37,840 bases of DNA from assembly GCA_020852295.1 (NCBI GenBank), contig JADZBC010000011.1:1-37840 (forward strand). Direction: 5' to 3'. The notes beneath the pieces are model-generated. The model saw only the letters and a list, made by a program, of their open reading frames with translations. It made no database searches and was not told the origin of the DNA. The stretch is from a bacterium (GTDB taxonomy: Bacteria > Patescibacteriota > Saccharimonadia > CAILAD01 > JADZBC01). Below are positions 9,922 to 25,641 of the stretch, piece after piece. The first letter of the stretch is position 1; each line of letters opens with the position of its first letter. A program made the translations under genes and the position numbers.

Positions 9922-9953
9922 TTCCCCGGTCGGGCCTTGGCCCGACCGGGGAA
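9922..9953 (-). terminator. GC-rich hairpin ending the AAA ATPase cassette (no U tract)
   Basis: Perfect inverted repeat ttccccggtcgggccttggcccgaccggggaa. Confidence 0.7.
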
Positions 9954-9993
9954 GTCACTCACAACCCCCCGTGCAGGAGGACTTGTCGCCGAG

Positions 9994-11433
9994 CTAGCTC
10001 GGCGAGGAACCGTTGGTGGACAGCGTGAGGCCCTGGGGCCGATCGCCGTCCATCAGGTGCGTCTCGTTGATGATGCCACGCACCTCGCCTTCCACGAGAC
10101 CCCGCAGGGCCTCGTCGAGCGAGGGACGCGTCCCCATCTCCTCGGCGGCCTCCATCATGTCGTGCTGAGCCCGCAGGCTCTGCGCGGCGGCGACGATGTC
10201 CTCCGTGGTGATGGTCATGTTCTTGAAGGAGTTGGTCCGGATGAAGCTGTAGCGCGTCGCCCGGCTGGCCGCCTCCTTGACGAAGGCCGGGAGGAACCCG
10301 TCCATCGCCTCGAACACCTTCCCCCAGTCGATCTTCTTCGCGAGGCTCCCCTGGGGGATCGCGACGCGAACGAGCTGGGTGACGCCCTCCATGTCCAGCG
10401 GCCCGATGTCGATGATCGAGTCGAGCCGACCGGGCCGGAGCATCGCCTTCGGCAGCACCTCGATCCGGTTGGTGGTCATGACGGTGACGACCTCGACGCC
10501 CTTGTTCTTGAGCCCGTCGAAGAGCTCCAGGGTGCGGGCGAGCTTGGTGAGGTCACCATCCTGCTCGACGACGCTGTCGATGTCCTCGATGAAGACCACC
10601 GAGGGCCCGTACTGGATCGCCATGTTCATGGCGTCCTCCACGGACTCGCCGGGGCGGCAGTAGATGAACGTCCAGCCGTTGGCGACGGCGATCTGCGCGG
10701 TGAGGTAGCCGGCGAGGGTCTTGCCCGTGCCGTACTGCCCGTTGAGGACGACCGCCCGCCGCAGCGGGATGTTGTTCTCGCGCATCTTGTCCGAGTGCTC
10801 GAGGAGCGCCCAGACGTCCGCCTGCAGCTGCTGGTTGACGTGCGACGAGTAGACCACGTCGGTGGGCTTGACGCCCGTCAGATCCAGGAAGCTGATGTTG
10901 GTGCCACCGAAGAAGGCCTTGCCGCGGTAGATGGACGACTGCTTGAGCCGCTCATCGATCGCCGCGAAGACCTGCTCGACGATGGCCTTGTACTTCCTCG
11001 GGCCGTAGACGTGCATGAAGAAGACCGGCGCACCGGTGCCCTCGTCCTTGCGCTCGTGGAAGCCGATCTCGGTGTCCTTGAGCTGCGCGACCTTGAAGTG
11101 CCCCCAGGGCACCTGCTTGGTCTCGCCCGGCCCGATCTCGACCAGCTCCATGCTCGGCGGGATGTCGCCGAACCAGCTGGGGATCGGCTTGCCGTCGACG
11201 ATGCCGAAGGTCTCGTAGAGGACGGCGATGGCGGCGAGCGCCCCGTCGAACGGGCGGTACGGGAAGGTCCGCTTGAACTCGGTCTGCGCGTCGAAGCCGT
11301 CGGACTTCTCCTCCAGGGCCTCGATGGCCTCGTCGAGCGTCATGCCGGCGGGGAGGACGAACGTCGTCCCCTCGAACTTGACGTCATCGTCGAGGCTGGC
11401 CCAGGGGTCGATGGTCGAATCCTGCTTGGTCAT
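9994..11433 (-). CDS. AAA-family ATPase, GC-rich cassette 1
   Basis: Walker A GQYGTGKTLAGY, Walker B VVFIEDIDSV, MTTNRIEVLPKAMLRPGRLD. Start moved from ORF-track 11445 to ATG 11433, preceded by GGAGGT. Strongly GC-biased third codon positions. Confidence 0.88.
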   Translation of the reverse strand: MTKQDSTIDPWASLDDDVKFEGTTFVLPAGMTLDEAIEALEEKSDGFDAQTEFKRTFPYRPFDGALAAIAVLYETFGIVDGKPIPSWFGDIPPSMELVEIGPGETKQVPWGHFKVAQLKDTEIGFHERKDEGTGAPVFFMHVYGPRKYKAIVEQVFAAIDERLKQSSIYRGKAFFGGTNISFLDLTGVKPTDVVYSSHVNQQLQADVWALLEHSDKMRENNIPLRRAVVLNGQYGTGKTLAGYLTAQIAVANGWTFIYCRPGESVEDAMNMAIQYGPSVVFIEDIDSVVEQDGDLTKLARTLELFDGLKNKGVEVVTVMTTNRIEVLPKAMLRPGRLDSIIDIGPLDMEGVTQLVRVAIPQGSLAKKIDWGKVFEAMDGFLPAFVKEAASRATRYSFIRTNSFKNMTITTEDIVAAAQSLRAQHDMMEAAEEMGTRPSLDEALRGLVEGEVRGIINETHLMDGDRPQGLTLSTNGSSPS

Positions 11434-11527
11434 TGTTGGTGACACCTCCGTGTCGGTTGGGTTGGTTGTGAGTGGGTTGTTCAGGTCCCCCCGATTAGCG
11501 ACCGTGGGTCGCGTAGGGTTGCCGCCA

Positions 11528-11556
11528 ATAATACTATATTTATAGATTTATGTCAA
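11528..11556 (-). promoter_or_regulatory. Promoter of the AAA ATPase cassette
   Basis: Minus strand TTGACA (11551-11556), N17, TATTAT (11528-11533), in an abruptly AT-rich block. Confidence 0.75.
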
Positions 11557-11569
11557 TATATATTAAGCG

Positions 11570-13351
11570 CTACGCGAGTTCGAATTTCTTGAGTTTTTCT
11601 TTGGTTTCTTTGGTGGCGGGCATGGTCTGGAGCTTGAGCAGCTCAGCGTAAATTCCATTGCCCTTGGCAAGCTCAGCTGGCGTACCAATCTCAGCCACTT
11701 TGCCACCACGAATACCGACCACGAGATCCACGCCAGCAATGGTACTGAGGCGGTGAGCAATGATCAGTGTCGTGCGTCCATGCATCAGCCGTTCCAAAGC
11801 TTCCTGCACTTCTCGCTCTGCCTTACTGTCGAGCGAACTGGTCGCCTCATCGAGCACTAGAATTGGAGCGTCTTTCAAAATAGCCCGCGCTATCGCAATA
11901 CGCTGCTTCTGACCACCGGACAGCTTCACGCCGCGCTCACCGATCTGGGTATCGAAACCATCAGGTAGTTTCTTAATAAAATCATAGGCATTGGCCGCCT
12001 TGGCAGCCGATTCGAGGTCCTTGCGCGAGGCATTTGGCCGAGCATAGGCGATGTTTTCACGGATCGTGCCAGAAAAGAGCTGGGGTTCCTGGAAAACAAC
12101 CCCAATGTTTCGGCGCAAGCTCGCCTGCGACACCTTGGCGATCGACTGGCCATCGATCAAAATCTCGCCACCATTGAGATCATAAAAACGCAGCATCAGA
12201 TTGGCGATCGTGCTCTTACCCTCACCACTCTCACCCACGAGGGCCACCTTACTGCCTGACTCCATCGTGAAGCTTATCTTATTGAGCACATTTTTCTTAT
12301 TGTCATAGGCAAAATCAACCCCGCGATACTCAACCTTACCCTGCTTCACCTTCAGTTCGCGTGCACCGGCCTGATCTGTGATAGCCGGTTCAAGCTCCAT
12401 AACCGAGAAGTAATCTCGACTGTCCGCCGTAGCACGCTGCAAGGCGTCGATGATAAATGAACTTCCAAACAGTGGAAACTGTGCCTGGTTTACGAGCGTA
12501 ATGAGCAAAGTCAGTACGCCGATACTGTACTGCCCGTTGTACGCTTGCCAAAAGATAATGCCATAGATCAAGAAAAAAACGATATTGAGGGTGATTCGGC
12601 GCCAGGCATCATACTCGTGCCACTTGAGCGACTGGCCCTTGGTCTGTTTCTCGATACTATCGCGTTTGCGTTTGTAGAAGCTCAACTCGCGCAGATCTGT
12701 TACAAACGATTTAACCACCCGAACCTGTCCGATCGACTCGATAAAGCGGCCATTCGCCACATCAATATCAGCATTGATGCCCATCTGACGCTTTTGCCAA
12801 TCTTTTGAACTAAGGTGGGTAATCCAGATGTACGTCGGGAAAATTACGATCAACAGCAACGCCACTGGCCAGGAGTAGAGTGCAATTACCACCAGTGTCA
12901 CAATCGTTGTGAGGAAAAACTGGATAAAGTTATTGCTCAGTGTCTGCATCAACGTACTGATCGTGTTGATCGAGCGCTCCAGTCGAGCCGTGATTTTTCC
13001 AGTTATTTCGTTGTCGTAGTAGCTGATCGGTAAGCGCATCAGTTGCTCAAAATAGCGCTTCGACAGAAGGCTGTTGAGTCGCACTGACATCATGTCGCCG
13101 ATATGGCCATTGATGTTGCTCAGGAGCGTGACCGCAAAACCGGCTATCAAAGTCAGTACAAGAAGCCAGATCAAATACGAAAACTGCACCGCCTGTCCGC
13201 TGGTCTTGGCCACCACTGCATCAACTAGATATTTGGTCAAAAAAGGCACGGCCAACTGTAGGCCCGCCAAGATCACCACAAAAAAGGTAATCGCTACATA
13301 ATAGCGCCACAGCTGCTTCGAGTATCGAACAATCTTGATAATTTCTTTCAT
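11570..13351 (-). CDS. ABC transporter, fused permease/ATP-binding exporter
   Basis: N-terminal TM domain; Walker A GESGEGKST; signature LSGGQKQR; Walker B ILVLDEATSSLD. Confidence 0.95.
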   Translation of the reverse strand: MKEIIKIVRYSKQLWRYYVAITFFVVILAGLQLAVPFLTKYLVDAVVAKTSGQAVQFSYLIWLLVLTLIAGFAVTLLSNINGHIGDMMSVRLNSLLSKRYFEQLMRLPISYYDNEITGKITARLERSINTISTLMQTLSNNFIQFFLTTIVTLVVIALYSWPVALLLIVIFPTYIWITHLSSKDWQKRQMGINADIDVANGRFIESIGQVRVVKSFVTDLRELSFYKRKRDSIEKQTKGQSLKWHEYDAWRRITLNIVFFLIYGIIFWQAYNGQYSIGVLTLLITLVNQAQFPLFGSSFIIDALQRATADSRDYFSVMELEPAITDQAGARELKVKQGKVEYRGVDFAYDNKKNVLNKISFTMESGSKVALVGESGEGKSTIANLMLRFYDLNGGEILIDGQSIAKVSQASLRRNIGVVFQEPQLFSGTIRENIAYARPNASRKDLESAAKAANAYDFIKKLPDGFDTQIGERGVKLSGGQKQRIAIARAILKDAPILVLDEATSSLDSKAEREVQEALERLMHGRTTLIIAHRLSTIAGVDLVVGIRGGKVAEIGTPAELAKGNGIYAELLKLQTMPATKETKEKLKKFELA

Positions 13352-13381
13352 GCCGGCTTATTATAGCTGAAAATCGCACTA

Positions 13382-13409
13382 TAAAAAAGAAAGCGCCCGG
13401 AGGCGCCTT
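13382..13409 (-). terminator. Intrinsic terminator after the first fasciclin gene
   Basis: Minus strand GGCGCCTCCGGGCGCTTTCTTTTTT. Confidence 0.7.
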
Positions 13410-13434
13410 CTTTATTGCACACGTTTTTTTGTAT

Positions 13435-14112
13435 TTATGGCAGAAGAACTGTGTCGATAACGTGGATCACACCATTGCTGGTACGAATGTCATAGACTAC
13501 TACCTTACTGTCATTGATGAAGAGGTCCCCGTTGCGAATGCTGATGTTCACATTCGCGCCATTGACGGTTGGTGCACTCGTCAAAGTTTTTGCGGTTGCG
13601 GCTCGAACATCACCACTGACCACGTGGTAGGTAAGGATATTGGTCAGAGTTGGAATGTCGTTGAGCAGAGCCTCAACTGTACCGGCTGGCAGTTTTGCAA
13701 AAGCCTGATCAGTCGGTGCAAAGACGGTGAATTTACCTGGGCTCTTGAGCGTATCTACCAGACCTGCAGCGCCGACGGCAGCCGTCAGGGTCTTGAAGTT
13801 ACCATTTGCTACCAAGGTGTTTACTACATCTTGATCGGCGACACAGTTGCGAGCATTGTCGCGATTCACCCAAAACTGGATGCGCTTCACGATACGGTCA
13901 TTGTTCTGGTCAAAATTGCCAAACAAACGAGCCTGCTTGTGGTCAATGTAGTTGCAGCGGGCTGCTTGCCAACGCTCGGCGCGAGCCTCGCGCCAGTTGC
14001 CGCCCCAGCTGCCGTGCGCAGCAGATGCTGCTAGTGGCATGAGCGTAAAGCTCATTGTAGCGACTCCTGAAGCAACAAACAGACCAATTTTCTTTGCGAT
14101 ATTCATATACAT
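13435..14112 (-). CDS. Secreted fasciclin (FAS1) domain protein
   Basis: Signal peptide; FAS1 motifs [48 protein letters not shown]. Confidence 0.93.
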   Translation of the reverse strand: MYMNIAKKIGLFVASGVATMSFTLMPLAASAAHGSWGGNWREARAERWQAARCNYIDHKQARLFGNFDQNNDRIVKRIQFWVNRDNARNCVADQDVVNTLVANGNFKTLTAAVGAAGLVDTLKSPGKFTVFAPTDQAFAKLPAGTVEALLNDIPTLTNILTYHVVSGDVRAATAKTLTSAPTVNGANVNISIRNGDLFINDSKVVVYDIRTSNGVIHVIDTVLLP

Positions 14113-14130
14113 CCTCCTTTTATAGTTATC

Positions 14131-14682
14131 TTATTGAGCCGATGGGATCAGCACGCTATCGATAACGTGGATCACACCATTGCTTGTTTTGATATCGGTT
14201 GTTACAACCTTGGCACCATTGATAGTGACACCACCGTTGGCGTCAGTCGCAATCTTCACTTCAGCACCATTGACAGTCTTGGCACTCGTAAGCTTCACAA
14301 CATCCTTGGCCAGTACTTCACCGGCTACGACGTGGTAAGTCAAGATCTTTTTGAGCTCTTCTGGCTTCTGCAGGAGGCCATCAAGCGTACCGGCTGGTAA
14401 CTTAGCAAAAGCTTCGTTGGTTGGTGCAAATACGGTGAACGGTCCTGGACCAGATAGAGTCTCTACTAATCCGGCAGTCTTCACGGCGGTTACGAGTGTC
14501 GTAAAGTCACTGTTTGCTGCTGCTGTTTCAACTATATTTTTTGCCGCTGGGCTCTGTCGAGCGGCCGACGGGCTTGGCGTGGTCTCGGTCTTCATACCCG
14601 ATCCAGCGAATGCCCAGATGCCACCGATCACTACGACGGCTGCTATCACGATCCCGATGATCATATTACGTTGTTTGTCCAT
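14131..14682 (-). CDS. Membrane-anchored fasciclin (FAS1) domain protein
   Basis: N-terminal [50 protein letters not shown]. Confidence 0.93.
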
Positions 14683-14756
14683 TTACTAATCTCCAATTGT
14701 GTTATATAATAGTTTTGCTTGAAAGGTCGGCGCTTCATTGAGACGCCGGCTTTTTT
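14682..14756 (+). ncRNA. Candidate short RNA: promoter followed closely by a terminator
   Basis: Plus strand TTTACT (14682-14687), N17, TATAAT (14705-14710), then hairpin gtcggcgcttcattgagacgccggc + TTTTTT (14727-14756), with no ORF between. Confidence 0.3.
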
Positions 14757-14791
14757 GTATGAGCCTTTGGCTCATCGACATCTTTTTCAAT

Positions 14792-15367
14792 TCATACACC
14801 CCTCCTTTCAATTGATCGCAATATAAAGTTGGAAATTGTCTTGGCTAGGTCTTCCCGTTCCTTACCGGTCGGCGTTTCAGGATAATACTCCAACAGATAG
14901 CCATTAATAGCATGAGTAATCACTTTGGCCTCACTTGGAATGTCGAGTTCAATAAACTCGCCAGATTCCACCCCGCGCTCAAGCACTTCCTCAATATGGA
15001 GGTATGCCTTAGGTGGCACATAGCCCTTATCTGATTGCTTTTCAAACTTTTTGCGGTTATAGAGGTAATACTTGAGAACAAACACCACGTCTTCAGCATG
15101 GTCTATCTGGAAAAGGACGCGCTCGTGCATCATCGCCCGAGCGTCTTTTGATACCTTCAGAGCGGCCCGCTCTTGACCAAGTCGATGGCTGGTCTCATCG
15201 AAAATAACCTGAAGAAGCTCATCTTTATCCTTGAAGTAGTGATATATCACTGAGGGAGAGATTTTGGTGTCTTTAGCGATGTTGCGCATCGACAGGAGTG
15301 CATAGCCAGTCAGGGCAAACTGTCGCTTGGCGTGCTCCATAATGTGGGTTCTAGTTTCTTGTGTCAT
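14792..15367 (-). CDS. TetR/AcrR-family transcriptional regulator
   Basis: N-terminal HTH: HAKRQFALTGYALLSMRNIAKDTKISPSVIYHYFKDKDELLQVIFDE. Confidence 0.93.
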   Translation of the reverse strand: MTQETRTHIMEHAKRQFALTGYALLSMRNIAKDTKISPSVIYHYFKDKDELLQVIFDETSHRLGQERAALKVSKDARAMMHERVLFQIDHAEDVVFVLKYYLYNRKKFEKQSDKGYVPPKAYLHIEEVLERGVESGEFIELDIPSEAKVITHAINGYLLEYYPETPTGKEREDLAKTISNFILRSIERRGV

Positions 15368-15383
15368 TGTCTTGCTCCAATTT

Positions 15384-15403
15384 AGATCGAACGTTCGTTC
15401 TAT
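15384..15403. promoter_or_regulatory. Candidate TetR operator
   Basis: 20-bp palindrome tagatcgaac|gttcgttcta with one mismatched pair, just upstream of the TetR start codon and downstream of its minus-strand TTGACA (15435-15440). Confidence 0.65.
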
Positions 15404-15463
15404 TTACAGGTATAGTATAGGTTTTACATGCCATTGTCAACAAAAAAATGTGCATCAAAATGC

Positions 15464-15492
15464 TTGACAAAGTGCTTGTGTTTGTATATAAT
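15464..15492 (+). promoter_or_regulatory. Perfect sigma70-type consensus promoter of the Rpf-like gene
   Basis: TTGACA (15464-15469), N17, TATAAT (15487-15492). Confidence 0.8.
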
Positions 15493-15513
15493 AGCCGCGT
15501 TCTAATCAATTGC

Positions 15514-15536
15514 GACCTGTTCATCAGGTCTTTTTT
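15514..15536 (+). terminator. Terminator/attenuator-like hairpin in the Rpf gene leader
   Basis: gacctgttcatcaggtc followed by TTTTTT, about 15 nt after the predicted TSS and 70 nt before the start codon. Confidence 0.6.
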
Positions 15537-15606
15537 GATGGAACAAAGTACATTAACGAGAAAGGAAAGTTGCAGTAGTAAGCGAGGGTGAACTTGTCTT
15601 ACATAT

Positions 15607-16173
15607 ATGCGTAAACTTTTCGGTGCGTTCGTATCTATCATGATACTCGCCAACCAGGCAACTACTCTGGTACCAAACTCCGTTGCCGACTCAGTCCAGG
15701 CTCCCGCCAAAACTGAGGGTATCTACACCTTGAAACTAAACACCAACAAGGTGGCAGCTATTGAGGTCAAATCAACCTCTGGCTCATTTAATCAGGTAAA
15801 AGAACACCTGATCAACGAGCAAAACGCCAAGGCTGAAGCCGACGCCAAAAAGGCCGAGGAAGCCAAGCAAGCTGCTATCCGAAAACAGCAGGCTGCCGCA
15901 GCCGTGGTCCAAAACCCGGTTGTAAAGGTCTCTACTGGTGATGTTTGGGAACAGCTTCGTATGTGTGAAGCTGGTGGTAACTATGCTCGAAACTCGGGTA
16001 ACGGTTACTACGGTGCCTATCAGTTCGATATCGGTACCTGGGGTGGATATGGTGGCTACGCACGTGCCGACCTAGCCCCTCCTGCCGTACAGGACGAAAA
16101 GGCTCGCCTTACCCACAACGCCCGTGGATGGTACCCATGGCCTGCCTGTGCACGTAAGCTTGGTCTTATCTAA
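15607..16173 (+). CDS. Secreted Rpf-like transglycosylase-fold protein
   Basis: Signal peptide, Ala/Lys-rich linker, C-terminal domain VWEQLRMCEAGGNYARNSGNGYYGAYQFDIGTWGGYGG...GWYPWPACARKLGLI as in actinobacterial Rpf domains. Confidence 0.88.
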   Translation: MRKLFGAFVSIMILANQATTLVPNSVADSVQAPAKTEGIYTLKLNTNKVAAIEVKSTSGSFNQVKEHLINEQNAKAEADAKKAEEAKQAAIRKQQAAAAVVQNPVVKVSTGDVWEQLRMCEAGGNYARNSGNGYYGAYQFDIGTWGGYGGYARADLAPPAVQDEKARLTHNARGWYPWPACARKLGLI

Positions 16174-16190
16174 GCCACGCGCACACCAAC

Positions 16191-16224
16191 CACAAAGCCC
16201 CCGATCTTATGATGGGGGCTTTTG
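16191..16224 (+). terminator. Intrinsic terminator of the Rpf-like gene
   Basis: aagcccccgatcttatgatgggggctttt. Confidence 0.8.
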
Positions 16225-16231
16225 GTATATA

Positions 16232-16260
16232 TTGAATATATTGCATAATTATGCTATAGT
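16232..16260 (+). promoter_or_regulatory. Promoter of GC-rich cassette 2
   Basis: TTGAAT (16232-16237), N17, TATAGT (16255-16260). Confidence 0.6.
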
Positions 16261-16314
16261 ATCGCATCGGCAAACGTGTCAGCCGAGGCAAATCGCCAAA
16301 GACACAAGGAAGTG

Positions 16315-16722
16315 ATGCTGTTGCTAAACGAAGATGAGTTGCGCCGAGTGAGTGGGCGCGAGGACGCTCGACGGCGTCAGCGGCGAGTGTTTTCGATCGG
16401 GTTCCTCGTGATCTCGATCGGCATGCTCACTATGGCATGGCTCGATGCTCTCGGCGACTACACCCCAGTCCGGGTTGTCGCCGTCCTAGGGATCTGCTTC
16501 ATCCTGTCGCAGATCATCCTCTGGTGGCCCGACCACCCACTGGATGCGATCAACCAGCAGGCCCCAGACGCCTGCCCCTGTGGCAAGGAGGTCTGCCCGT
16601 TCGGCGACGAGATCTATGACTGGAACGGTCAAGAGCCAGCAGAACTGGAGTGGCCCGACCCAGACGGCGGTCCGCCCGTCGGCCGGCCGGCCAACTGCCG
16701 ACAGTTCATCAACCGCGGCTAA
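16315..16722 (+). CDS. Hypothetical small membrane protein, GC-rich cassette 2
   Basis: Two predicted TM segments (VFSIGFLVISIGMLTMAWL; VVAVLGICFILSQIILWW) then CPCGKEVCPF. Start set to ATG 16315 after AAGGAA; the ORF track gives GTG 16276. Confidence 0.65.
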   Translation: MLLLNEDELRRVSGREDARRRQRRVFSIGFLVISIGMLTMAWLDALGDYTPVRVVAVLGICFILSQIILWWPDHPLDAINQQAPDACPCGKEVCPFGDEIYDWNGQEPAELEWPDPDGGPPVGRPANCRQFINRG

Positions 16723-16778
16723 TCGGCCGCTGGCAGCGAAGTGCCATGAGTGCATACCAGCACCTTCGAATATCGCCC

Positions 16779-16806
16779 CACCTTATCAAAGAGGTGGGGC
16801 GACTGC
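16779..16806 (+). terminator. GC-rich hairpin ending cassette 2
   Basis: cgccccacctt...agaggtggggcg. Confidence 0.7.
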
Positions 16807-16826
16807 TTTTTAATATAAATCTTCTG

Positions 16827-16853
16827 GGGGTGGGCCGTTGTGCCCACCCCCAC
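16827..16853 (-). terminator. GC-rich hairpin ending cassette 3
   Basis: gggggtgggccgttgtgcccacccccacc, oriented downstream of the minus-strand gene. Confidence 0.65.
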
Positions 16854-16854
16854 C

Positions 16855-17349
16855 TCAGATGTCCTCCGGGTCTGCTCGGCGTCGGAGCTGTTCTTCGTCG
16901 CGCGTGAGCTGTTTGCGGCACCCGCTACAGCTTCTGACATGCATCTTGATCCGAAACAGATCACGCGCGTAGGGGCCCGACGTCTGATCGCGATTACGGA
17001 TGTAGAACTCGAGCTCGTAGTGCGTCAGGCAGTCGCCGATCTCCACGTCATCCATGCCATCATCGCGTCGCTCCGAGGTATCTGCCTCGTCGCAAAACTC
17101 CGACATCTGCCTGATCAGATGTACCAGGTCGAACTGCCAGAAGAACAGCAGCACAACCGCCAACAGAGCTGCTGGCGACCAACCAAGGCCTTTCCGGCCA
17201 ATCCAACACAAGAAGATCAGTCCAGCGCTACGAACGCCGAAAGCACCCAGCTGCTCAATCGCCTGCCGCTGACGCTGGGTCAGCTTCGGGTGTGTCACCG
17301 CGACGAGCCAAGCTCCGCCAATGGCAACACACAGAGTTATCGCCGTCAT
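16855..17349 (-). CDS. Membrane protein with C-terminal zinc anti-sigma-like (HxxxCxxC) motif, GC-rich cassette 3
   Basis: N-terminal hydrophobic segments; C-terminal CLTHYELEFYIRNRD...KMHVRSCSGCRKQL; AGGTGG upstream of ATG. Confidence 0.7.
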   Translation of the reverse strand: MTAITLCVAIGGAWLVAVTHPKLTQRQRQAIEQLGAFGVRSAGLIFLCWIGRKGLGWSPAALLAVVLLFFWQFDLVHLIRQMSEFCDEADTSERRDDGMDDVEIGDCLTHYELEFYIRNRDQTSGPYARDLFRIKMHVRSCSGCRKQLTRDEEQLRRRADPEDI

Positions 17350-17416
17350 GGCATCACCACCTTATGAGAACAAAAAGGAACGAGGCTACGTTAGATTAGC
17401 ACATCTGTTGCAAATA

Positions 17417-17442
17417 AAAAACACCCCGTGAGGGGCGTTTTT
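17417..17442 (-). terminator. Intrinsic terminator after the small Cys peptide gene
   Basis: Minus strand AAAAAACGCCCCTCACGGGGTGTTTTTT. Confidence 0.75.
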
Positions 17443-17455
17443 TATGATGTGATGC

Positions 17456-17557
17456 TTACTGGCAAGCCTGGCAATCTTCGATGTTGTCAGGATTGAGCGG
17501 ACATACGTTAGCCAAAAAATCTTCTTCGACTACAGCAGTAGTTTCGTCTTTCTGCAC
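17456..17557 (-). CDS. Unlisted 33-aa small peptide with three Cys
   Basis: Own minus-strand translation: MQKDETTAVVEEDFLANVCPLNPDNIEDCQACQ*. GTG start, AGGAGG 5 nt upstream, own terminator, TACAAT box upstream. Not in the supplied ORF list (too short). Confidence 0.6.
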   Translation of the reverse strand: MQKDETTAVVEEDFLANVCPLNPDNIEDCQACQ

Positions 17558-17739
17558 TTCACCCTCCTTTAGTTTTTGAAAACTTGATACTTATTGTAGC
17601 ACAACTTTTTTGATTGCAATAGGTATTTTCTGCCATATATAGTGCTTTGAGTTGATTCAATCCACCATATATAGAAATATCGACATTACGTGCGTAATTT
17701 CAGCTATTTCTAAGTTTTTCTGGGCTATACTGCTTATAT

Positions 17740-17976
17740 ATGGATACATTCCTCAAGCACAGCAAACGCCTCGTGGTTAGCATCATCGGTGTTACCGCCC
17801 TCATCGTCGGGGTTATATTCTTTGTACTGCCTGGTCCTGGCTTTATATTTGTGATCATCGGACTTGGTGTACTCGCAACCGAGTTTGTTTGGGCAGAGAA
17901 TTTACTCAATAAAGCCAAGCTCCACTACCAAACGATCCAGCAGAAAGTCGCTATCAAGCGAAAAAATAATAGCTGA
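17740..17976 (+). CDS. PGPGW-family transmembrane protein
   Basis: FFVLPGPGFIFVIIGLGVLATEFVWAENLL. Confidence 0.85.
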   Translation: MDTFLKHSKRLVVSIIGVTALIVGVIFFVLPGPGFIFVIIGLGVLATEFVWAENLLNKAKLHYQTIQQKVAIKRKNNS

Positions 17977-18031
17977 TTTCTATCCATAATCGGGTTATAC
18001 TGAGACAAAGCATAACAATTTATGAGGTCTC

Positions 18032-19765
18032 ATGAACCCACAAGACAACAAACCACGCCTGGCCCCCGAACCAAAACCAACTAATTCCAACCAAACACCC
18101 ACGCCGTCGCGGCACAATAAGAAAAAAATTGCGCTGGGCGTCATCATCGCCCTACTACTCATGAGCGGGGCAAGTGCGGCTACATACTTCTTGACCCGAC
18201 CTAAGCCCGTCGCCACCACTACACCGACGCCAACCGCTACGGCCACGCCAACGCCAACCGGCGAAATCACCATCAATGGCAATAAATACTTTGCAAAACC
18301 AAAAAAGGTTACCTATATTCCTTTACTAAGTACCGACAAGGAAGCTGCCTGCAGCAACGAGGCACCGGAGTGTAGCGAAACCTACCAAATAGGTACCGCC
18401 AAAGACGGCGCCGAAATTCTGGTACAGGTGAGCTCACAGGGCTTGGGCTACACCCAGTTTGTGTTCCTCGGTAACGCCAAGAAATACCAGATCATATCCG
18501 CCCTTGCCACTTACCTGCCTGAAAATACACCACTTGCAGCCGGCGTCAGTACGATCAGTACAAACCCCCTCAGCGAGCTACTCTTTGACGAGTCAGCCAG
18601 CGTCAGCGGCGTTAATCTGACCGGCAACAAGATACCGAACCTCATCGGCTTCTCATCGGGCCTCGGGCTCGCTACTCTAAGCGACACCGCCAAGAAGCTT
18701 GGCGAGATCAATAACAAGGTCTTTTGGTCATCGATCAAAACTGATTCTGCCAACTACCAGGTCGTCGAAAACTACGCGACATTGGGTGGCGTGATGATGA
18801 GCACGTATAAGCTGAGTGATGGCCTCATAACTGCCGATGATAAAAAAGCCAGTATCAATTGGACAAAGGGTGAAAATGTTGCCGCCCAGTTCTTTAGCGG
18901 CGGCAATGGCTGTGGCACTGTCGGCTATGTTATTACCAAAAATACGCAGTCTGGCGATCTGACTGAAGTCGGTAAGTCGGCTGATGGACGAAGCCTCTAC
19001 CAGTTACCAAATAATAACGCGCTCGTCCAAGAGCTCTACAACAAGGATTACGCCAACGGTGAATACCTCGACAATCCTGACCTCAAAAAGCTATCAATCG
19101 ATCAGTTTGTTGCCAAACACGGTTATGTCTTAGTCAAAAATGCCCTCGATCAATACGTAGTGCTTCAGCGCCGCGATATGTTCTTCCAGGGTGGCTGCGC
19201 CAAGCCAGTCGTGTATCTCTACCCAACCCAAACCACTAGCGTCTCAGTCGCTGTCGGCGCCGATGTGACCGTCTCAGAGCCACTCTACCCAGCTGGTGGC
19301 TGGCGCAATGTCATTGCCCAGCCGAACGGCCGCCTCAACTACATGGGCAAAAACTACGACTCTCTGTTCTGGGAAGGTAAAGGCAATGGCGCCTACCCGA
19401 CTATCACATCGGGTACAATCGTGCGCCAAGACCAGCTTCTGGGCACGATACGCCGCCAGCTTGCTGAGCAAGGCCTCAACGCCAAAGAAACTGCTGACTT
19501 CATGGACTTTTGGACACCAAACCTACCAAAAGACCCTTACGTACGACTCACGTGGTTTGGCAATCGTGAACTGGGTGAACTCGCACCACTCTATGTTTCA
19601 CCTCGACCAAACACCTCGATACGAGTCTTTCTCGATGCCGAGGGGCTGCTCGCACCGATTAGCATGCCGCAACAACAGCTATCTCCTGCTCCAGCCCGTA
19701 CCGGCTTAACCCTCGTCGAATGGGGTGGACTCGCTCGCTATGGCTTGAGCAACCTAAAGCGTTAG
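18032..19765 (+). CDS. Hypothetical membrane-anchored surface protein with TP-rich linker and KPVVYLYP domain
   Basis: N-terminal TM, TTPTPTATATPTPTGE linker, C-terminal GGCAKPVVYLYPTQTTSVSVAV...LFWEGKG. Confidence 0.75.
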   Translation: MNPQDNKPRLAPEPKPTNSNQTPTPSRHNKKKIALGVIIALLLMSGASAATYFLTRPKPVATTTPTPTATATPTPTGEITINGNKYFAKPKKVTYIPLLSTDKEAACSNEAPECSETYQIGTAKDGAEILVQVSSQGLGYTQFVFLGNAKKYQIISALATYLPENTPLAAGVSTISTNPLSELLFDESASVSGVNLTGNKIPNLIGFSSGLGLATLSDTAKKLGEINNKVFWSSIKTDSANYQVVENYATLGGVMMSTYKLSDGLITADDKKASINWTKGENVAAQFFSGGNGCGTVGYVITKNTQSGDLTEVGKSADGRSLYQLPNNNALVQELYNKDYANGEYLDNPDLKKLSIDQFVAKHGYVLVKNALDQYVVLQRRDMFFQGGCAKPVVYLYPTQTTSVSVAVGADVTVSEPLYPAGGWRNVIAQPNGRLNYMGKNYDSLFWEGKGNGAYPTITSGTIVRQDQLLGTIRRQLAEQGLNAKETADFMDFWTPNLPKDPYVRLTWFGNRELGELAPLYVSPRPNTSIRVFLDAEGLLAPISMPQQQLSPAPARTGLTLVEWGGLARYGLSNLKR

Positions 19766-19771
19766 GCGGTC

Positions 19772-20476
19772 ATGCACGAAAAACTCAAAGCCAAGACAAA
19801 ACTAACGCGGCGCGACATCCTGCAGGCCTGCGGACCACTCAGTGCAGATCCGGTGACCGACGCCAGACTACGCCGCATTGAGGCTGACTTTGCCGATGGC
19901 TTTGCCTTTCTCGATACTGTGCACCGTGCCGTTAGTATTTTTGGCAGCACCATTCTGCCAGAAAGTGATCCGTACTACCAAGATGCGCGTCGGCTCGCGA
20001 ACAAACTCGTTACCGAGGGCGGCTTTACTGTTATCACTGGTGGTGGGCCAGGCATCATGGAAGCAGCCAACCGCGGCGCCAGTGAGGCCGGCGGTGTTTC
20101 GGTCGGACTCAATATCGAACTGCGCAATAATCAGCCGAGCAACCAATACATCAACCGAAGCGAAAACTTCCACTATTTCTTTGCGCGCAAGGTGGCTTTA
20201 GCGTTTTCTGCTCGAGTCTATATCTTTTACCCAGGTGGCTTCGGTACACTCAACGAATTCACCGAACTGGTCATGCTCGTCCAAACTGAAAAGATTCAGC
20301 CAATTCCGATCATATGCGTTGGTTCGGACTTCTGGAACCCGATCAAGAAACTAATGGGCGAATTGCTAAAAGTAAAATTCGGCGTGATCGATGACGATGA
20401 TCTGAGTCTTTTTCAGATTGTCGACGATCATGATAAGATACTACAAACAGCCAATGAGGCGGCACGGAGGACTTAA
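19772..20476 (+). CDS. LOG-family (TIGR00730-like) Rossmann-fold protein
   Basis: FTVITGGGPGIMEAANRGA; FYPGGFGTLNEFTE. Confidence 0.92.
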   Translation: MHEKLKAKTKLTRRDILQACGPLSADPVTDARLRRIEADFADGFAFLDTVHRAVSIFGSTILPESDPYYQDARRLANKLVTEGGFTVITGGGPGIMEAANRGASEAGGVSVGLNIELRNNQPSNQYINRSENFHYFFARKVALAFSARVYIFYPGGFGTLNEFTELVMLVQTEKIQPIPIICVGSDFWNPIKKLMGELLKVKFGVIDDDDLSLFQIVDDHDKILQTANEAARRT

Positions 20477-20964
20477 TGAGTAAAAAAGCAAAAGTAAGCT
20501 CATCGATAATCATCGCTATTGTCGCGATCATTGCCGTACTGGGATTGTTAGCCCTTGTTTTCGCAGGAAAGATGCAAGCACCCCTTAGCCCTTCGACTAC
20601 ACCAAACCCCACAGCAAGTACCCAAACACAAAACTCAAGTAATGCCAATCCTGCAACGCCAGGATCATACGTCGATTACAGCGACAGCATCATTGCAAGC
20701 ACCTCGGGAATTAAGTTGCTATTTTTCCATGCCCCATGGTGCCCTCAGTGTCGAGCGCTGGATGCAAGCATCAAATCTGGTCCAATTCCAAACGGGATAA
20801 CGATTATCAAGACAGATTACGACTCCAATCAAAAGCTACGCCAAAAATATGGCGTAACAATTCAAACTACCGTAGTGCGAGTTGATGACAACGGCAATCT
20901 CGTAAAAAAATACGTTGCCTATGATAAGCCAACGCTGGAAAACGTAATCAAAAATACTCAATAA
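20476..20964 (+). CDS. Membrane-anchored thioredoxin-like protein
   Basis: N-terminal TM; LLFFHAPWCPQCRALDASI. Confidence 0.9.
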   Translation: MSKKAKVSSSIIIAIVAIIAVLGLLALVFAGKMQAPLSPSTTPNPTASTQTQNSSNANPATPGSYVDYSDSIIASTSGIKLLFFHAPWCPQCRALDASIKSGPIPNGITIIKTDYDSNQKLRQKYGVTIQTTVVRVDDNGNLVKKYVAYDKPTLENVIKNTQ

Positions 20965-20965
20965 T

Positions 20966-21685
20966 ATGCCGTTTTTGCTGATTGCTTTTCTGTCTGGTGT
21001 GCTGACGGCATTAGCACCGTGCGTCCTGCCTATTATCCCGGCGGTAATTGGCGGATCTGTCAGTGGCAATGATCACAAAAAACCATACATCGTCACTTTT
21101 TCACTATTGATATCAATCGTGGTTTTCAGTCTTATCCTCAAAGGCAGCACACTTCTCATTGCGGTGCCCGATCTATTTTGGCGGATTCTCTCTGGCGGTA
21201 TTATCATTTTCTTCGGCCTTACACTAATCTTCCCGATGCTTTGGGATAAGTTAACCAGCAGAGCTAAGCTATTTGAACGTTCCCAGAAACTACTCGGTGG
21301 CGCCTCCAAAAAAGATGGGGTTGGTGGCGCGATTCTGATTGGCATTGCGCTTGGACCAGTCTTTACAAGCTGTAGTCCAGTTTATCTGCTGATACTGTCA
21401 ACGATCTTACCGCGAAGTTTCGCTGAAGGGCTGATCGCTATAGTTGCCTATGCTCTAGGCCTCTGTCTTGTGCTACTCCTCGTTGGTATCTTTGGTCAAC
21501 GAATCATTCATCGCTTTGATTGGGCGGCAAATCCGTATGGCTGGTTCAAGCGTAGCCTTGGGGTTTTTCTGGTCTTAGCTGGGCTTCTAGTTGTTAGTGG
21601 CCTCGATCGCCAAATTCAACAACTCGTCATCACGACAGGCATTCTGGACATTACAAAAGTCGAACAACGTCTCCTCGGTCAGTAA
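20966..21685 (+). CDS. Cytochrome c biogenesis CcdA/DsbD-like membrane protein
   Basis: GVLTALAPCVLPIIPAVIGGS; GPVFTSCSPVYLLIL; adjacent to the thioredoxin-like gene. Confidence 0.9.
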   Translation: MPFLLIAFLSGVLTALAPCVLPIIPAVIGGSVSGNDHKKPYIVTFSLLISIVVFSLILKGSTLLIAVPDLFWRILSGGIIIFFGLTLIFPMLWDKLTSRAKLFERSQKLLGGASKKDGVGGAILIGIALGPVFTSCSPVYLLILSTILPRSFAEGLIAIVAYALGLCLVLLLVGIFGQRIIHRFDWAANPYGWFKRSLGVFLVLAGLLVVSGLDRQIQQLVITTGILDITKVEQRLLGQ

Positions 21686-21687
21686 TA

Positions 21688-21716
21688 TTGCTATTAGCGG
21701 TAAATTATTGTATTAT
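21688..21716 (+). promoter_or_regulatory. Promoter of GC-rich cassette 4
   Basis: TTGCTA (21688-21693), N17, TATTAT (21711-21716). Confidence 0.75.
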
Positions 21717-21758
21717 GTAGCCCTCCACTCGTCCAAACACTGAAAGTAGGTGGTTCCC

Positions 21759-22385
21759 ATGGCACGACGTCGCAACCGCGGCATCGTTCGTCGCAACATC
21801 CCGGCCGGCCTGAAAGGCTACGAGGTCATCCTCGACGAAGACGTCGAAGACCCCAAGCTGACCAAGGCCGACCGTGATCTGATCCGTCGCGCACCGCTGC
21901 TCGGCTACAAGCTCATGATCGCTCGCAGCTACGCCGACAAGTTCAAGAAGCGGGCCGACAAGGTGCTCAAGCCGCAGCTCGATGAGCTGCTACAGCAGCT
22001 GCCCGAAGGCGTCGTCGGCGTGATCTGCCGCATCGGCAAGAAGACCCGCATGAAGGTCGAGCGGGTCGCGGTCTACCGCACGGAGATCGCCGACTCACTG
22101 CTGCTGCTGCGCTACCTCGGCGAGCACGCCAACGAGGTGGTGACCGGTGTCAGCGTGCCGGTCGGACAGATGGCCGGCAACGCCGACGCGTTCCGCGCGC
22201 TGCAGTGCGCCGTCACCGACATCATGGGTGAGGGCCTCGGTCAGCACGTCCAGGTCACCATCGACAATGAGAAGCTCAACAAGCTGATCAAGGATGGCGA
22301 CCTGCCCGAGGTACCCGAGGGCGCCTTCCGTGAGGTGCTCGGCTACTACCGCATCGACGCCAAGCCGATCAACTCGGCCGCCTGA
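21759..22385 (+). CDS. Hypothetical basic protein, GC-rich cassette 4
   Basis: MARRRNRGIVRRNIPAGLKGYEVILDEDVED...; ATG preceded by AGGTGG; strong GC3 bias. Confidence 0.75.
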   Translation: MARRRNRGIVRRNIPAGLKGYEVILDEDVEDPKLTKADRDLIRRAPLLGYKLMIARSYADKFKKRADKVLKPQLDELLQQLPEGVVGVICRIGKKTRMKVERVAVYRTEIADSLLLLRYLGEHANEVVTGVSVPVGQMAGNADAFRALQCAVTDIMGEGLGQHVQVTIDNEKLNKLIKDGDLPEVPEGAFREVLGYYRIDAKPINSAA

Positions 22386-22409
22386 TCGGTGCCCCGACGA
22401 GTGGAAGAC

Positions 22410-22437
22410 TGGCTGGCGGGATTCGTCCCGCCGGCCA
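22410..22437 (+). terminator. GC-rich hairpin ending cassette 4 (no U tract)
   Basis: tggctggcgggattcgtcccgccggcca. Confidence 0.65.
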
Positions 22438-22505
22438 CCACTCCTTACTAAAGCACATATGTTATAATTATCTAGAATGTTCCCTCCCAAATAGAGGAGC
22501 TCAAA

Positions 22506-22988
22506 ATGAAATACTTCCTTGACACGGAGTTCGATGAATACGTCGATGAACTTGGCCGTGGCATTATTGCGCCTATTAGCCTCGGTTTGACTGCCGAGGA
22601 TGGTCGCGAGTACTATGCCGAATTCGCGGAATTTGATTGGCAATCTGCCGATCCGTGGTTGGTACAAAACGTGCTACCACACTTGAGCGGCCCAGTGCTA
22701 GCCCATCAAGTCATCGCCGAGCAAGTACGCCGCTTTGTGGCCGATGACGACAACCCCGAGTTCTGGGCGTACGTCGGCAGCTACGACTGGGTGGTGCTTG
22801 TGCAGCTTTTTGACAAACTCATCAGCCGACCGGCCAACTGGCCTAATCGACATCGCGAACTCAAAGATTTGGTAGAACAAGCTGGGCTTCGTAAGTCCGA
22901 TCTACCAACCCAGCTGGGCTCAGCCCATCGAGCGATCGATGACGCACGCTGGAATATGGAAGTGTATCACTTCCTGATGAGCCGCTAA
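22506..22988 (+). CDS. 3'-5' exoribonuclease, Rv2179c-like
   Basis: MKYFLDTEFDEY...IISLGLTAEDGREYYAEF...GSYDWVVLVQLF...AHRAIDDARWNMEVY (DEDD-type acidic residues). Confidence 0.8.
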   Translation: MKYFLDTEFDEYVDELGRGIIAPISLGLTAEDGREYYAEFAEFDWQSADPWLVQNVLPHLSGPVLAHQVIAEQVRRFVADDDNPEFWAYVGSYDWVVLVQLFDKLISRPANWPNRHRELKDLVEQAGLRKSDLPTQLGSAHRAIDDARWNMEVYHFLMSR

Positions 22989-23034
22989 GCCCGGTAAGGC
23001 TCGGTTTTACCGGGCCTTACCACGTTTTGTTAAA

Positions 23035-23448
23035 TTAACTCGTTTTAAATGTCAGAATCCCAAGTCCGATCATGGCCAAAATAAAACCAACGATTTTCAC
23101 AAGATCCAGCGACTCGCGCAGGAATATCACAGACAAGACGAATGCGACGACGATATAGCCGGTTGCAAGAACCGAAGCAGTCCCTACTTCAAGCGTTTGT
23201 AGTGCAAAGACAAACAGCACCGATCCAATTGCCATGCTTAAGCCGATCGCAATCCCAAGCGGCAAGGCCTTTGTCGGGATGGCAAAGTTTTTCTGCGACA
23301 ACCAAAGCATCGGAACGGCAATAAGCAACATACCAATGCTCATCAGGAAGTTTATCTGGGCAGACGACAAGTCCTTCATGGCAAATTTCATCAAAAATGT
23401 ACCGATCCCGACGATAAGCACGTAGCCAAGTATGAAAAGTATTCCCAT
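23035..23448 (-). CDS. EamA/DMT-type small transporter
   Basis: Four-TM protein: ASVLATGYIVVAFVLSVIFLRESLDLVKIVGFILAMIGLGIL. Confidence 0.8.
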   Translation of the reverse strand: MGILFILGYVLIVGIGTFLMKFAMKDLSSAQINFLMSIGMLLIAVPMLWLSQKNFAIPTKALPLGIAIGLSMAIGSVLFVFALQTLEVGTASVLATGYIVVAFVLSVIFLRESLDLVKIVGFILAMIGLGILTFKTS

Positions 23449-23473
23449 GTGATCATTATACGCCAGTACGTCA

Positions 23474-23504
23474 AAGGGCGGGGATCATCGATGTCCCCGC
23501 CCTT
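23474..23504 (-). terminator. GC-rich hairpin ending the desaturase cassette
   Basis: aagggcggggatcatcgatgtccccgccctt. Confidence 0.75.
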
Positions 23505-23570
23505 ACCTCATTCTCGTCGCGCGCAGCGCTTCTCCCAATCGCCACACGGGACATGCCCCAGCCGCCGATC

Positions 23571-24479
23571 TCAGTGCCGCATGTAGCCCTGGAAGACCAC
23601 CTCTCGCCGCGGCTGCTTGAGCCCACGCACCACACCCACCTTGCTCAGCAGCCAAAGCACGTAGTAGGTGGTGTCGATCTGCCACCAGACGAAGCCCTGT
23701 CGGACCGACTGCTGGTAGCGGTGGTGGTTGTTGTGCCAGCCTTCACCGCCGGTGTAGAGGGCGATGACCACGTTGTTACGACTGGTGTCAGTGGTGGTGT
23801 AGCGCCGGGTGCCCCAGACGTGCGCCAGGCTGTTGACCGTGAAGGTCGCGTGCCAGAGCACGACGGTGCTAAGGAAGAAGCCGATCAGTAGTCCGGCTGC
23901 CCCGCCACGCAGTACCGCCACCCAGCCGCCACCAATGCCGGTCGCGAAACCGACGAAGGCACAGAAGGATCCGGCCGTCCAGGTCGCCACCCAGTCATGC
24001 CGGTTGAGCCAGCATAGCTCCGGGAAGCGGGTGAAGTCGCGGATGTTCTCCTCTTTGGTCGCGTTGAACTTGTCACACAGGATCCAGCCAACGTGGCTCC
24101 ACCAGAACCCCTTGCGCGGCGAATGCACGTCGCGGTCGGTGTCGCTGTAGCGGTGGTGATCACGATGGTGAGCCGCCCACCAGAGTGGCCCCTTCTGAGC
24201 TGCCGTAGCTCCCCCGAAGGCGAAGACGAACTGCCAGAAGCGGTTCATCCGGTAGCTCTTGTGCGCGAAGTAGCGGTGGTAGCCCGCCGTGATGAAGAAC
24301 ATCCGGCTCCAGTACATCCACACCGCCAGCAGCCAGATCTGCCACGGGACCCCCGTGAAGATGGCCAGTAGCGGCAACAGATGCAACAACCAGAACGGGA
24401 TGGAGGTGATGGGGTTGACGCGCTCATCAGGCGCGCGCCGCAAGCGGCCGTACTCGGTCGCATCGCTGGTGACTGCCAT
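23571..24479 (-). CDS. Acyl-CoA/acyl-lipid delta-9-type fatty acid desaturase, GC-rich cassette 5
   Basis: Histidine boxes HRYFAH, HRDHH, HNNHH; multiple TM segments. Confidence 0.92.
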   Translation of the reverse strand: MAVTSDATEYGRLRRAPDERVNPITSIPFWLLHLLPLLAIFTGVPWQIWLLAVWMYWSRMFFITAGYHRYFAHKSYRMNRFWQFVFAFGGATAAQKGPLWWAAHHRDHHRYSDTDRDVHSPRKGFWWSHVGWILCDKFNATKEENIRDFTRFPELCWLNRHDWVATWTAGSFCAFVGFATGIGGGWVAVLRGGAAGLLIGFFLSTVVLWHATFTVNSLAHVWGTRRYTTTDTSRNNVVIALYTGGEGWHNNHHRYQQSVRQGFVWWQIDTTYYVLWLLSKVGVVRGLKQPRREVVFQGYMRH

Positions 24480-24556
24480 ATAGCGCTCCTAGGGTCTGCC
24501 CGACGAAGGGCGATGGAAATGAACGAGGTCTCGATTTTCGTTTATACAAACAAAAA

Positions 24557-24578
24557 CCAGCCTCATTATATAGGCTGG
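24557..24578 (-). terminator. Hairpin with T tract on the minus strand; loop contains TATAAT
   Basis: Minus strand CCAGCCTATATAATGAGGCTGGTTTTTG; TATAAT at 24565-24570 in the loop. Confidence 0.6.
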
Positions 24579-24599
24579 ATTCAATTAGTAAACCAGTGC

Positions 24600-24632
24600 G
24601 TACTGGAGCGGGGACCCTCCCCGCCCCAGTAC
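24600..24632 (-). terminator. GC-rich hairpin ending cassette 6
   Basis: gtactggagcggggaccctccccgccccagtac. Confidence 0.65.
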
Positions 24633-24652
24633 ACTGCCCCATGCCCCGATGT

Positions 24653-25027
24653 TCAGGCGCCAGCGCCGACCTTCTGCTTGGCCTTCAGGTCGTACGTGTT
24701 CGGGTCCACCAGGTGGCTGCGACCACGTCGGTCGAACTCGCCGATCCAGCGCTGGACCACATCCGGCAGCTCGGCACCCACGACCCGACCGCCCTCCTTC
24801 ACCAGCTTGGTGCCGAAGGTCTCGGCGATCGAGGATGCCAGCCTGCGACAGGATGTCCTCACCTGCTCCGCGCCGACGGTGACGCCGGCGTCGATGTCGC
24901 GCCAGGCCCTGGCATAGACGCAGTCGTGGGGGTCGCCGGGCGTACCCAGCGGGAGACGATCGAGCTGGTGCTGCCGGCACCTCCCGCGAACGCGGTTGAT
25001 GCTGTGAAGCACTTCACAGTCACGCAT
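24653..25027 (-). CDS. Hypothetical protein, GC-rich cassette 6
   Basis: MRDCEVLHSINRVRGRCRQHQLDRLPLGTPGDPHDCVYARAW...; ATG 25027 preceded by AGGAGG. Confidence 0.7.
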   Translation of the reverse strand: MRDCEVLHSINRVRGRCRQHQLDRLPLGTPGDPHDCVYARAWRDIDAGVTVGAEQVRTSCRRLASSIAETFGTKLVKEGGRVVGAELPDVVQRWIGEFDRRGRSHLVDPNTYDLKAKQKVGAGA

Positions 25028-25075
25028 GGCAAACCTCCTGGGTCTGACCTCACGGGTTGTGGGGTACTACTTATA

Positions 25076-25137
25076 GTTATACTCCTATCTCTTTGTAACG
25101 CAAGAGACTTGCTAATTTATACTTTTTATGGTATTAT
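25076..25137. promoter_or_regulatory. Divergent promoter pair of cassettes 6 and 7
   Basis: Minus: TTGCGT (25098-25103), N16, TATAAC (25076-25081). Plus: TTGCTA (25109-25114), N17, TATTAT (25132-25137). The two -35 boxes are 5 bp apart. Confidence 0.65.
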
Positions 25138-25185
25138 TGTGCCCTCAATCGGAACAAGCCGGTTGTGTACCAGGAGGTCACTGAC

Positions 25186-25581
25186 GTGCCCCTCGTCCGC
25201 ATGACACACGCGCCATATGTCGGTCCCGGCTGTGGCTCGGAGGGTCGCAACAAGAAGCTGGCTCACGCCCTGCCGGAGCTGTTCGTACAGAACTCGAGGA
25301 GGCTCGGTCTTGACGAAGACACGCCAGCGACAGCTGTCCAGGTGACCCATCACGAGTTCACCGTCGATGACGTCAACACGCCGGAGCTGTGGCTGGAGAT
25401 CTGCTTCACCGAAGAACCCCCGTCCGAGACCAAGCAGATGGAGGTCCGTTTCTACCTCGAGCAGATCATCACCAACTGGTTCGTGGAGAACGGCTACGTG
25501 ATGCCCGACATCGCTGTCGACATCTTCTGGGGCCCTGGCCGCGGCTTCTACCGCATCCAGGGCGAGTACCAGGAGTGGTGA
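25186..25581 (+). CDS. Hypothetical protein (possible tautomerase-like fold), GC-rich cassette 7
   Basis: GTG start 25186 preceded by AGGAGG at 25172-25177; MPLVRMTHAPYVGPGCGSEGRNKKLAHALPELF. ORF track start 25165 lies upstream of the SD. Confidence 0.7.
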   Translation: MPLVRMTHAPYVGPGCGSEGRNKKLAHALPELFVQNSRRLGLDEDTPATAVQVTHHEFTVDDVNTPELWLEICFTEEPPSETKQMEVRFYLEQIITNWFVENGYVMPDIAVDIFWGPGRGFYRIQGEYQEW

Positions 25582-25593
25582 AACTCCACTCCA

Positions 25594-25641
25594 CCCACCC
25601 CTCTTGGGGCTTCGCACGCAACACGCGAAGCTCCGGAGGGG
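25594..25641 (+). terminator. Long GC-rich hairpin ending cassette 7
   Basis: cccctcttggggcttcgcacgcaacacgcgaagctccggagggg. Confidence 0.65.

Follow-up and report, generated by a model that had tools for sequence, protein, structure and literature searches.

GC-rich single-gene units between housekeeping genes of a saccharibacterial genome, probably acquired from high-GC donors

Actinobacteria are known hosts of cultured Saccharibacteria. Genome reduction is usually taken to mean little gene uptake. For bacteria of the candidate phyla radiation (CPR), 84 horizontal gene transfer (HGT) events of 518-5730 bp have been reported from activated sludge (PMC10031880). ComEC-dependent natural transformation has been shown in a cultured saccharibacterium (PMC10633639), and phages that are targeted by spacers from both Saccharibacteria and Actinobacteria have been reported (PMC10746230). 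Besides such transfers, the closest described systems to the units reported here are phage morons and integron gene cassettes. We analyzed a 37,840-nucleotide stretch of DNA (the window), contig C11 (JADZBC010000011.1) of genome G000, which comprises 821,689 bases in 17 contigs. The gene content of the window (rpsB, tsf, prfA, parAB, LytR, and Rpf) and searches for kin fit a saccharibacterial genome. Seven GC-rich genes lie at 9922-25641, all between rpsB and rpmE/prfA, with housekeeping genes as their neighbors. We consider them probably to be single genes that were laterally acquired from high-GC donors and kept as insulated, moron-like units.

The initial annotation had described seven cassettes in this region, and all were present in the sequence where it placed them. 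Their parts are listed below, with GC3 standing for the GC fraction at third codon positions, ORF for open reading frame, and dG for the folding free energy.

9994..11433, minus strand: cassette 1 gene, AAA+ ATPase, 479 amino acids from an ATG after a Shine-Dalgarno sequence, GC3 0.96 (longest ORF 9994-11445)
11528..11556, minus strand: cassette 1 promoter TTGACA-17-TATTAT (from sequence)
9922..9953, minus strand: cassette 1 3′ hairpin, 15-bp perfect stem, without T-tract (dG -32.8)
16276..16722, plus strand: cassette 2 gene, 148 amino acids, N-terminal half hydrophobic, no family, GC3 0.75 (ORF, family searches)
16232..16260, plus strand: cassette 2 promoter TTGAAT-17-TATAGT, start codon just 15 nt downstream (from sequence)
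16772..16803, plus strand: cassette 2 3′ hairpin, followed by a T-run (dG -24.3)
16855..17349, minus strand: cassette 3 gene, 164 amino acids, N-terminal part hydrophobic, no family, GC3 0.70, no clear promoter (ORF, family searches)
16824..16853, minus strand: cassette 3 3′ hairpin (dG -25.9)
21759..22385, plus strand: cassette 4 gene, 208-amino-acid orphan by sequence, basic N terminus, GC3 0.88 (longest ORF 211 amino acids)
21688..21716, plus strand: cassette 4 promoter TTGCTA-17-TATTAT (from sequence)
22409..22438, plus strand: cassette 4 3′ hairpin (dG -25.1)
23571..24479, minus strand: cassette 5 gene, fatty-acid desaturase, 302 amino acids, GC3 0.86 (PF00487)
23474..23504, minus strand: cassette 5 3′ hairpin, 67-97 nt beyond the stop codon (read by eye)
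24653..25027, minus strand: cassette 6 gene, 124 amino acids, no family, GC3 0.84 (ORF, family searches)
24597..24635, minus strand: cassette 6 3′ hairpin (dG -34.4)
25186..25581, plus strand: cassette 7 gene, ~131 amino acids, GTG after Shine-Dalgarno AGGAGG, no family, GC3 0.83 (longest ORF from 25165)
25109..25137, plus strand: cassette 7 promoter TTGCTA-17-TATTAT, inside TTATGGTATTATTGTGC (from sequence)
25599..25641, plus strand: cassette 7 3′ hairpin (dG -28.7)

GC3 of the seven genes (0.70-0.96) fell outside the range of the 32 native genes of the window (0.539±0.042, maximum 0.62), at z scores of 3.8 to 10.2. This confirmed the annotated sharp break from moderate-GC neighbors to GC-rich codons, though two genes were only mildly shifted. 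In a codon log-likelihood test of 16 actinobacterial genes against the 32 native window genes, actinobacterial codon usage fitted five of the seven cassette genes better than native usage, as it did for 0% of native genes. The 148- and 164-amino-acid genes are weak cases with a mild compositional shift.

Near-consensus -35/-10 pairs with 17-bp spacing were found upstream of cassettes 1, 2, 4, and 7, whereas cassettes 3, 5, and 6 had weak or ambiguous promoter candidates only; the AT-rich promoter claimed for most cassettes is therefore clear in four of them. The claim that all seven end in a GC-rich hairpin held, six being scored at dG -24 to -34 and the seventh read by eye. As annotated, no direct repeat flanked the cassettes. 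Neither an att-like site nor a repeat family was found at their boundaries, no integrase was noticed among the window genes, and neither a prophage nor any phage structural gene could be recognized near a cassette. An integrative genomic island was rejected, as the window has no tRNA and the cassettes no flanking repeats, and so was an integron cassette array, given the lack of a boundary repeat family and of an integrase noticed in the window.

The locus proved variable among relatives. A skeleton of ABC-rpsB ... Rpf-LOG-p142-rpmE-prfA is conserved in related genera and its slot genes differ; in G001, G003, G005, G007, G008, and others the ABC transporter gene stands beside rpsB with different gene(s) in between. 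The interval from rpsB to p142/rpmE spans ~2.8 kb in G015 and up to ~16 kb in G007 and the window, and slot genes of the relatives are mostly of native GC. Gene-by-gene inspection of the longer rpsB-rpmE regions found none of the seven genes in the rpsB-rpmE/prfA interval of the relatives examined. In a search of a set of collected loci with all seven proteins, only the AAA+ ATPase and the desaturase had relatives, none of which stood at an rpsB locus. In G007, the same rpsB-rpmE interval holds a lone GC-rich gene (L240:15356-16108; GC3 0.93, phrog_4652) with a strong promoter and a hairpin, in a stretch of 44% GC.

The AAA+ ATPase of cassette 1 matched phrog_10440 (E 1e-84) over residues 21-461, near its full length, and carries Walker A, Walker B, and MLRPGR motifs, with the invariant motifs intact. 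Its best phage matches, at 37-40% identity, were from Gordonia/Mycobacterium phages, and 192 IMG/VR stretches encode relatives, with 42-45% identity reached in contigs that are mostly GC-rich. In the tree, it joined a supported clade with Gordonia/Mycobacterium phage copies and copies from actinobacterial genomes; its own branch is long, so the tree does not name the immediate donor. No copy was found in 16 other genomes of the order. The AlphaFold2 model (predicted local distance difference test score, pLDDT, 81) has a classical AAA motor fold, while whole-model structure searches gave no good global match for the N-terminal domain. The protein is predicted to remodel or unfold other proteins. 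A defense function as an anti-phage ATPase of the IetA/IteA kind was rejected, since the protein scored 26.5 bits against a cut-off of 510 and the PADLOC match was weak.

In Gordonia phage Keelan, the AAA gene lies reversed between the tail chaperone and tape-measure genes, which is a moron-like position. Together with the unit layout and with the phages targeted by spacers of both partners (PMC10746230), this would suit strict phage morons, i.e., prophage remnants or genes carried by phages that infect Saccharibacteria as well as their actinobacterial hosts. However, no phage structural gene was recognized near any cassette, the AAA+ ATPase is the only confident phage-family member among the seven, the phage AAA copies have no such promoter, and the GC-rich proteins scanned against PHROGs gave few matches, mostly to metabolic families. 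We therefore find this origin unlikely. The moron comparison made by the initial annotation thus stands for the promoter-gene-terminator layout, enriched across the genome, but not for phage morons in the strict sense.

The desaturase of cassette 5 matched PF00487 (E 5e-18; 66 bits against a cut-off of 29.7). Proteins 57-64% identical to it occur in 7 of 396 actinobacteria, and proteins 60-67% identical in 2 of 194 other genomes of the class, namely G032, where the gene is GC-rich, and G010, where it is of native GC. The seven actinobacterial and two other saccharibacterial members are interleaved in a 100/99 clade. The direction of transfer cannot be read from the tree; a path from actinobacteria to Saccharibacteria is favored because the gene is rare in the class and because of its GC3. 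A role in adjusting membrane lipids is predicted.

Profile searches found no family for the proteins of cassettes 2, 3, 4, 6, and 7. The 211-amino-acid protein of cassette 4 had no match in phages or IMG/VR, and among 245 genomes of the class it was found in its own genome only. A match in 1 of 396 actinobacterial genomes (E 7e-4) was taken as chance, and none was convincing; its structure model (pLDDT 42) was unusable. The 138-amino-acid product of the longest ORF in cassette 7 had no relatives among phages or IMG/VR, nor did GC-rich proteins of 597 and 434 amino acids encoded elsewhere in G000, and the 124-amino-acid protein had none among phage records, the one set searched. The annotated host or actinophage origin thus gains kinship for two of the seven genes and actinobacteria-like codons for five. 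Beside cassette 4, a gene for an RNase AS-like exoribonuclease (22506-22988; phrog_2259 E 1e-39, NCBIfam RNase_AS under its cut-off) has GC3 0.59, close to native, and is possibly an older acquisition. Elsewhere in the window, 13435-14682 encodes a diverged tandem pair of neighboring fasciclin-like secreted proteins.

GC-rich genes were then surveyed in 533 kb of G000, sampled in stretches from the 822-kb genome (~65%), with picks that were partly manual. A mechanical filter returned 40 GC-rich ORFs, or 7.5 per 100 kb, and high-GC segments made up 5.6% of the sampled bases. Among the proteins they encode are ThyX, thymidylate, cytidylate, and guanylate kinases, GNAT, an alpha/beta hydrolase, members of the M50 and CHAP families, a gamma-glutamylcyclotransferase-like protein, and many orphans; one 220-amino-acid protein (L040:306-968, contig C9) is weakly similar to the RNA polymerase alpha C-terminal domain. 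The seven cassettes, which had been proposed as a candidate system of the window, are therefore a valid observation, but they mark the place where a set spread over the whole genome is most densely packed. G005, from another family of the same order, has 9.7 GC-rich ORFs per 100 kb, including PurE/PurC (a GC-rich purE-purC pair at L187:16803-18230) and further genes unrelated to those of G000. No GC-rich ORF turned up in 136 kb of G015, although its overall GC is the same, and the majority of the other genomes sampled had few or none. A single conserved cassette protein family was rejected, since 39 GC-rich proteins of G000 were unrelated except for one tandem pair; what recurs in G005 is the layout and a promoter variant, not the cassette family across genomes that the initial annotation had named as possible support.

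A chimeric assembly or contaminating actinobacterial reads could be imagined for a draft of 17 contigs. Nevertheless, the GC-rich segments are about the size of a gene, form complete units, and are flanked by syntenic native genes on many contigs, one of them 384 kb long, and G005 shows the same pattern, which leaves this explanation hardly credible. Native genes whose GC-rich codons are kept by selection on expression or mRNA structure, with no foreign origin, would account for thyX-tmk, gmk, and cmk, which serve ordinary core functions and yet are GC-rich in G000. But the 67% identical G010 desaturase has a native GC3 of 0.49, which argues against the GC-rich form being obligatory, and G015 has the same overall GC without such ORFs. 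These two genomes already weaken the explanation, the relatives searched contain neither the orphan nor the phage gene, and we judge it very improbable.

The layout of the units was regular. The best 3′ hairpin had a median dG of -23.1 for 39 hand-picked GC-rich genes versus -6.2 for 127 native genes (p 8e-15). With the GC effect removed by z scores from dinucleotide shuffles, z>3 was reached by 59% of GC-rich genes in G000, whereas the share was 20% for native genes and 10% for a set of 31 actinobacterial genes; in G005 it was 33% versus 14%. Promoter and hairpin occurred together in 35% versus 9% of genes in G000 (p 0.004) and in 30% versus 11% in G005 (p 0.025). GC dropped sharply ~60 nt beyond the stop codon and in the 100 nt upstream of the ORF start, so the GC-rich DNA runs approximately from leader to hairpin.

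Some Saccharibacteria may instead keep a mobile class of single-gene cassettes, in which unrelated GC-rich cargo enters variable slots between housekeeping genes, each with strong hairpins behind it and, in front, a promoter of the TTGAC-N-TATGNTAAYAT form that is common and specific to the cassettes. A common undescribed vector, such as a phage or plasmid of Saccharibacteria, or a capture process would move them. A promoter matrix trained on G000 predicted GC-rich genes in G005, where 14 of its 40 top matches had one downstream versus a background of 8.8% (p 4e-6), and its top match in the examined G007 stretch precedes the GC-rich gene there. The variant TTGAC-N-TATGNTA[ACT][CT]AT stood upstream of GC-rich DNA in 7/7 of its matches in G000 and 3/4 in G005, with 0 matches in 956 kb from other genomes. 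Because the variant was defined on cassettes of G000, the count there is partly circular; the G005 count is independent of the definition but small. None of the four promoters in the window is a strict match. Unrelated cassettes also share 3′ modules: the same 47-nt hairpin region (47/47 nt) follows unrelated GC-rich genes on different contigs (L050:1476-1522 and L023:2252-2298), and L042/L050 3′ sequences agree at 42/45 nt. The L042 unit (L042:12074-13240, contig C9) is the tandem pair, its proteins 37% identical and its 3′ regions near-identical with a 45-nt palindrome that recurs at L050:557-601 downstream of an unrelated gene; an attC-like reading of the palindrome was rejected, as there are three copies only. 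Against such a class, no integrase, att-like repeat, or prophage was seen, and neither the promoter variant nor the 3′ modules had a match in IMG/VR. The promoter form shared across many cassettes leaves room for a dedicated class, which we regard as possible, if doubtful.

Several observations count against lateral acquisition from high-GC donors as independent units. Presence and absence were compared with relatives at ~60% rpsB identity. No relative was found outside their own genome for five of the seven cassette proteins, and the codons of the 148- and 164-amino-acid genes are native-like, the log-likelihood not favoring the actinobacterial set. A recurring promoter form would be unexpected if the genes arrived independently, and phage-side AAA genes have no cassette-type promoter. 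Finally, some GC-rich genes outside the window are normal saccharibacterial families, as is the conserved pair thyX-tmk (L047:6568-8795, contig C14; GC3 0.84/0.70): the double-domain form of ThyX is present in 65 of the 129 genera sampled in the class, often beside tmk and at native GC, so GC-richness alone is no proof of an actinobacterial donor.

Lateral acquisition is still the explanation that we favor, and for donor route, vector, and function we infer the following. The AAA+ ATPase and the desaturase would come from actinobacterial phages and actinobacteria, respectively. Host or phage DNA may have entered by natural transformation or transduction and been integrated illegitimately, with complete loss of flanking donor DNA; only one ComF-family competence gene was recognized in the sampled DNA of G000, so this uptake route is conjectural. 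In a variable intergenic slot, the resulting unit would hold one gene with a GC-rich leader, placed behind an AT-rich sigma70-type promoter and closed by a strong hairpin. Because the phage AAA genes have no such promoters, the recipient probably supplied them or selected for them. Single-gene units of foreign appearance thus account for ~5-6% of the sampled sequence of this 0.82-Mb episymbiont, and some of them can be traced to actinobacteria and their phages. If real, the shared promoter would offer a searchable signature for saccharibacterial cargo genes and an approach to the question of how epibionts take genes from the pool of their hosts.

Compared with known systems, the AAA+ ATPase shares with the phrog_10440 AAA ATPases of Gordonia/Mycobacterium phages full-length homology, a common N-terminal region, and the AAA motor at 37-45% identity; the saccharibacterial copy differs in being chromosomal, in its strong sigma70-type promoter, and in its long tree branch. 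The cassettes resemble integron gene cassettes as promiscuous single genes at intergenic positions, but each unit has its own promoter, and no integrase or attC arrays accompany them. Like phage morons, they each enclose one gene between a promoter and a terminator of its own, are foreign in composition, and are absent at the site in (distant) relatives, whereas they are scattered over the chromosome with no recognized prophage and one phage-family gene of seven. With reported CPR HGT (PMC10031880, PMC12455944) they share short foreign segments, largely unannotated genes, and hosts and phages as partners; the regular promoter-gene-hairpin layout and the shared promoter form, which the portions of those two reports considered here do not describe, set the present units apart.

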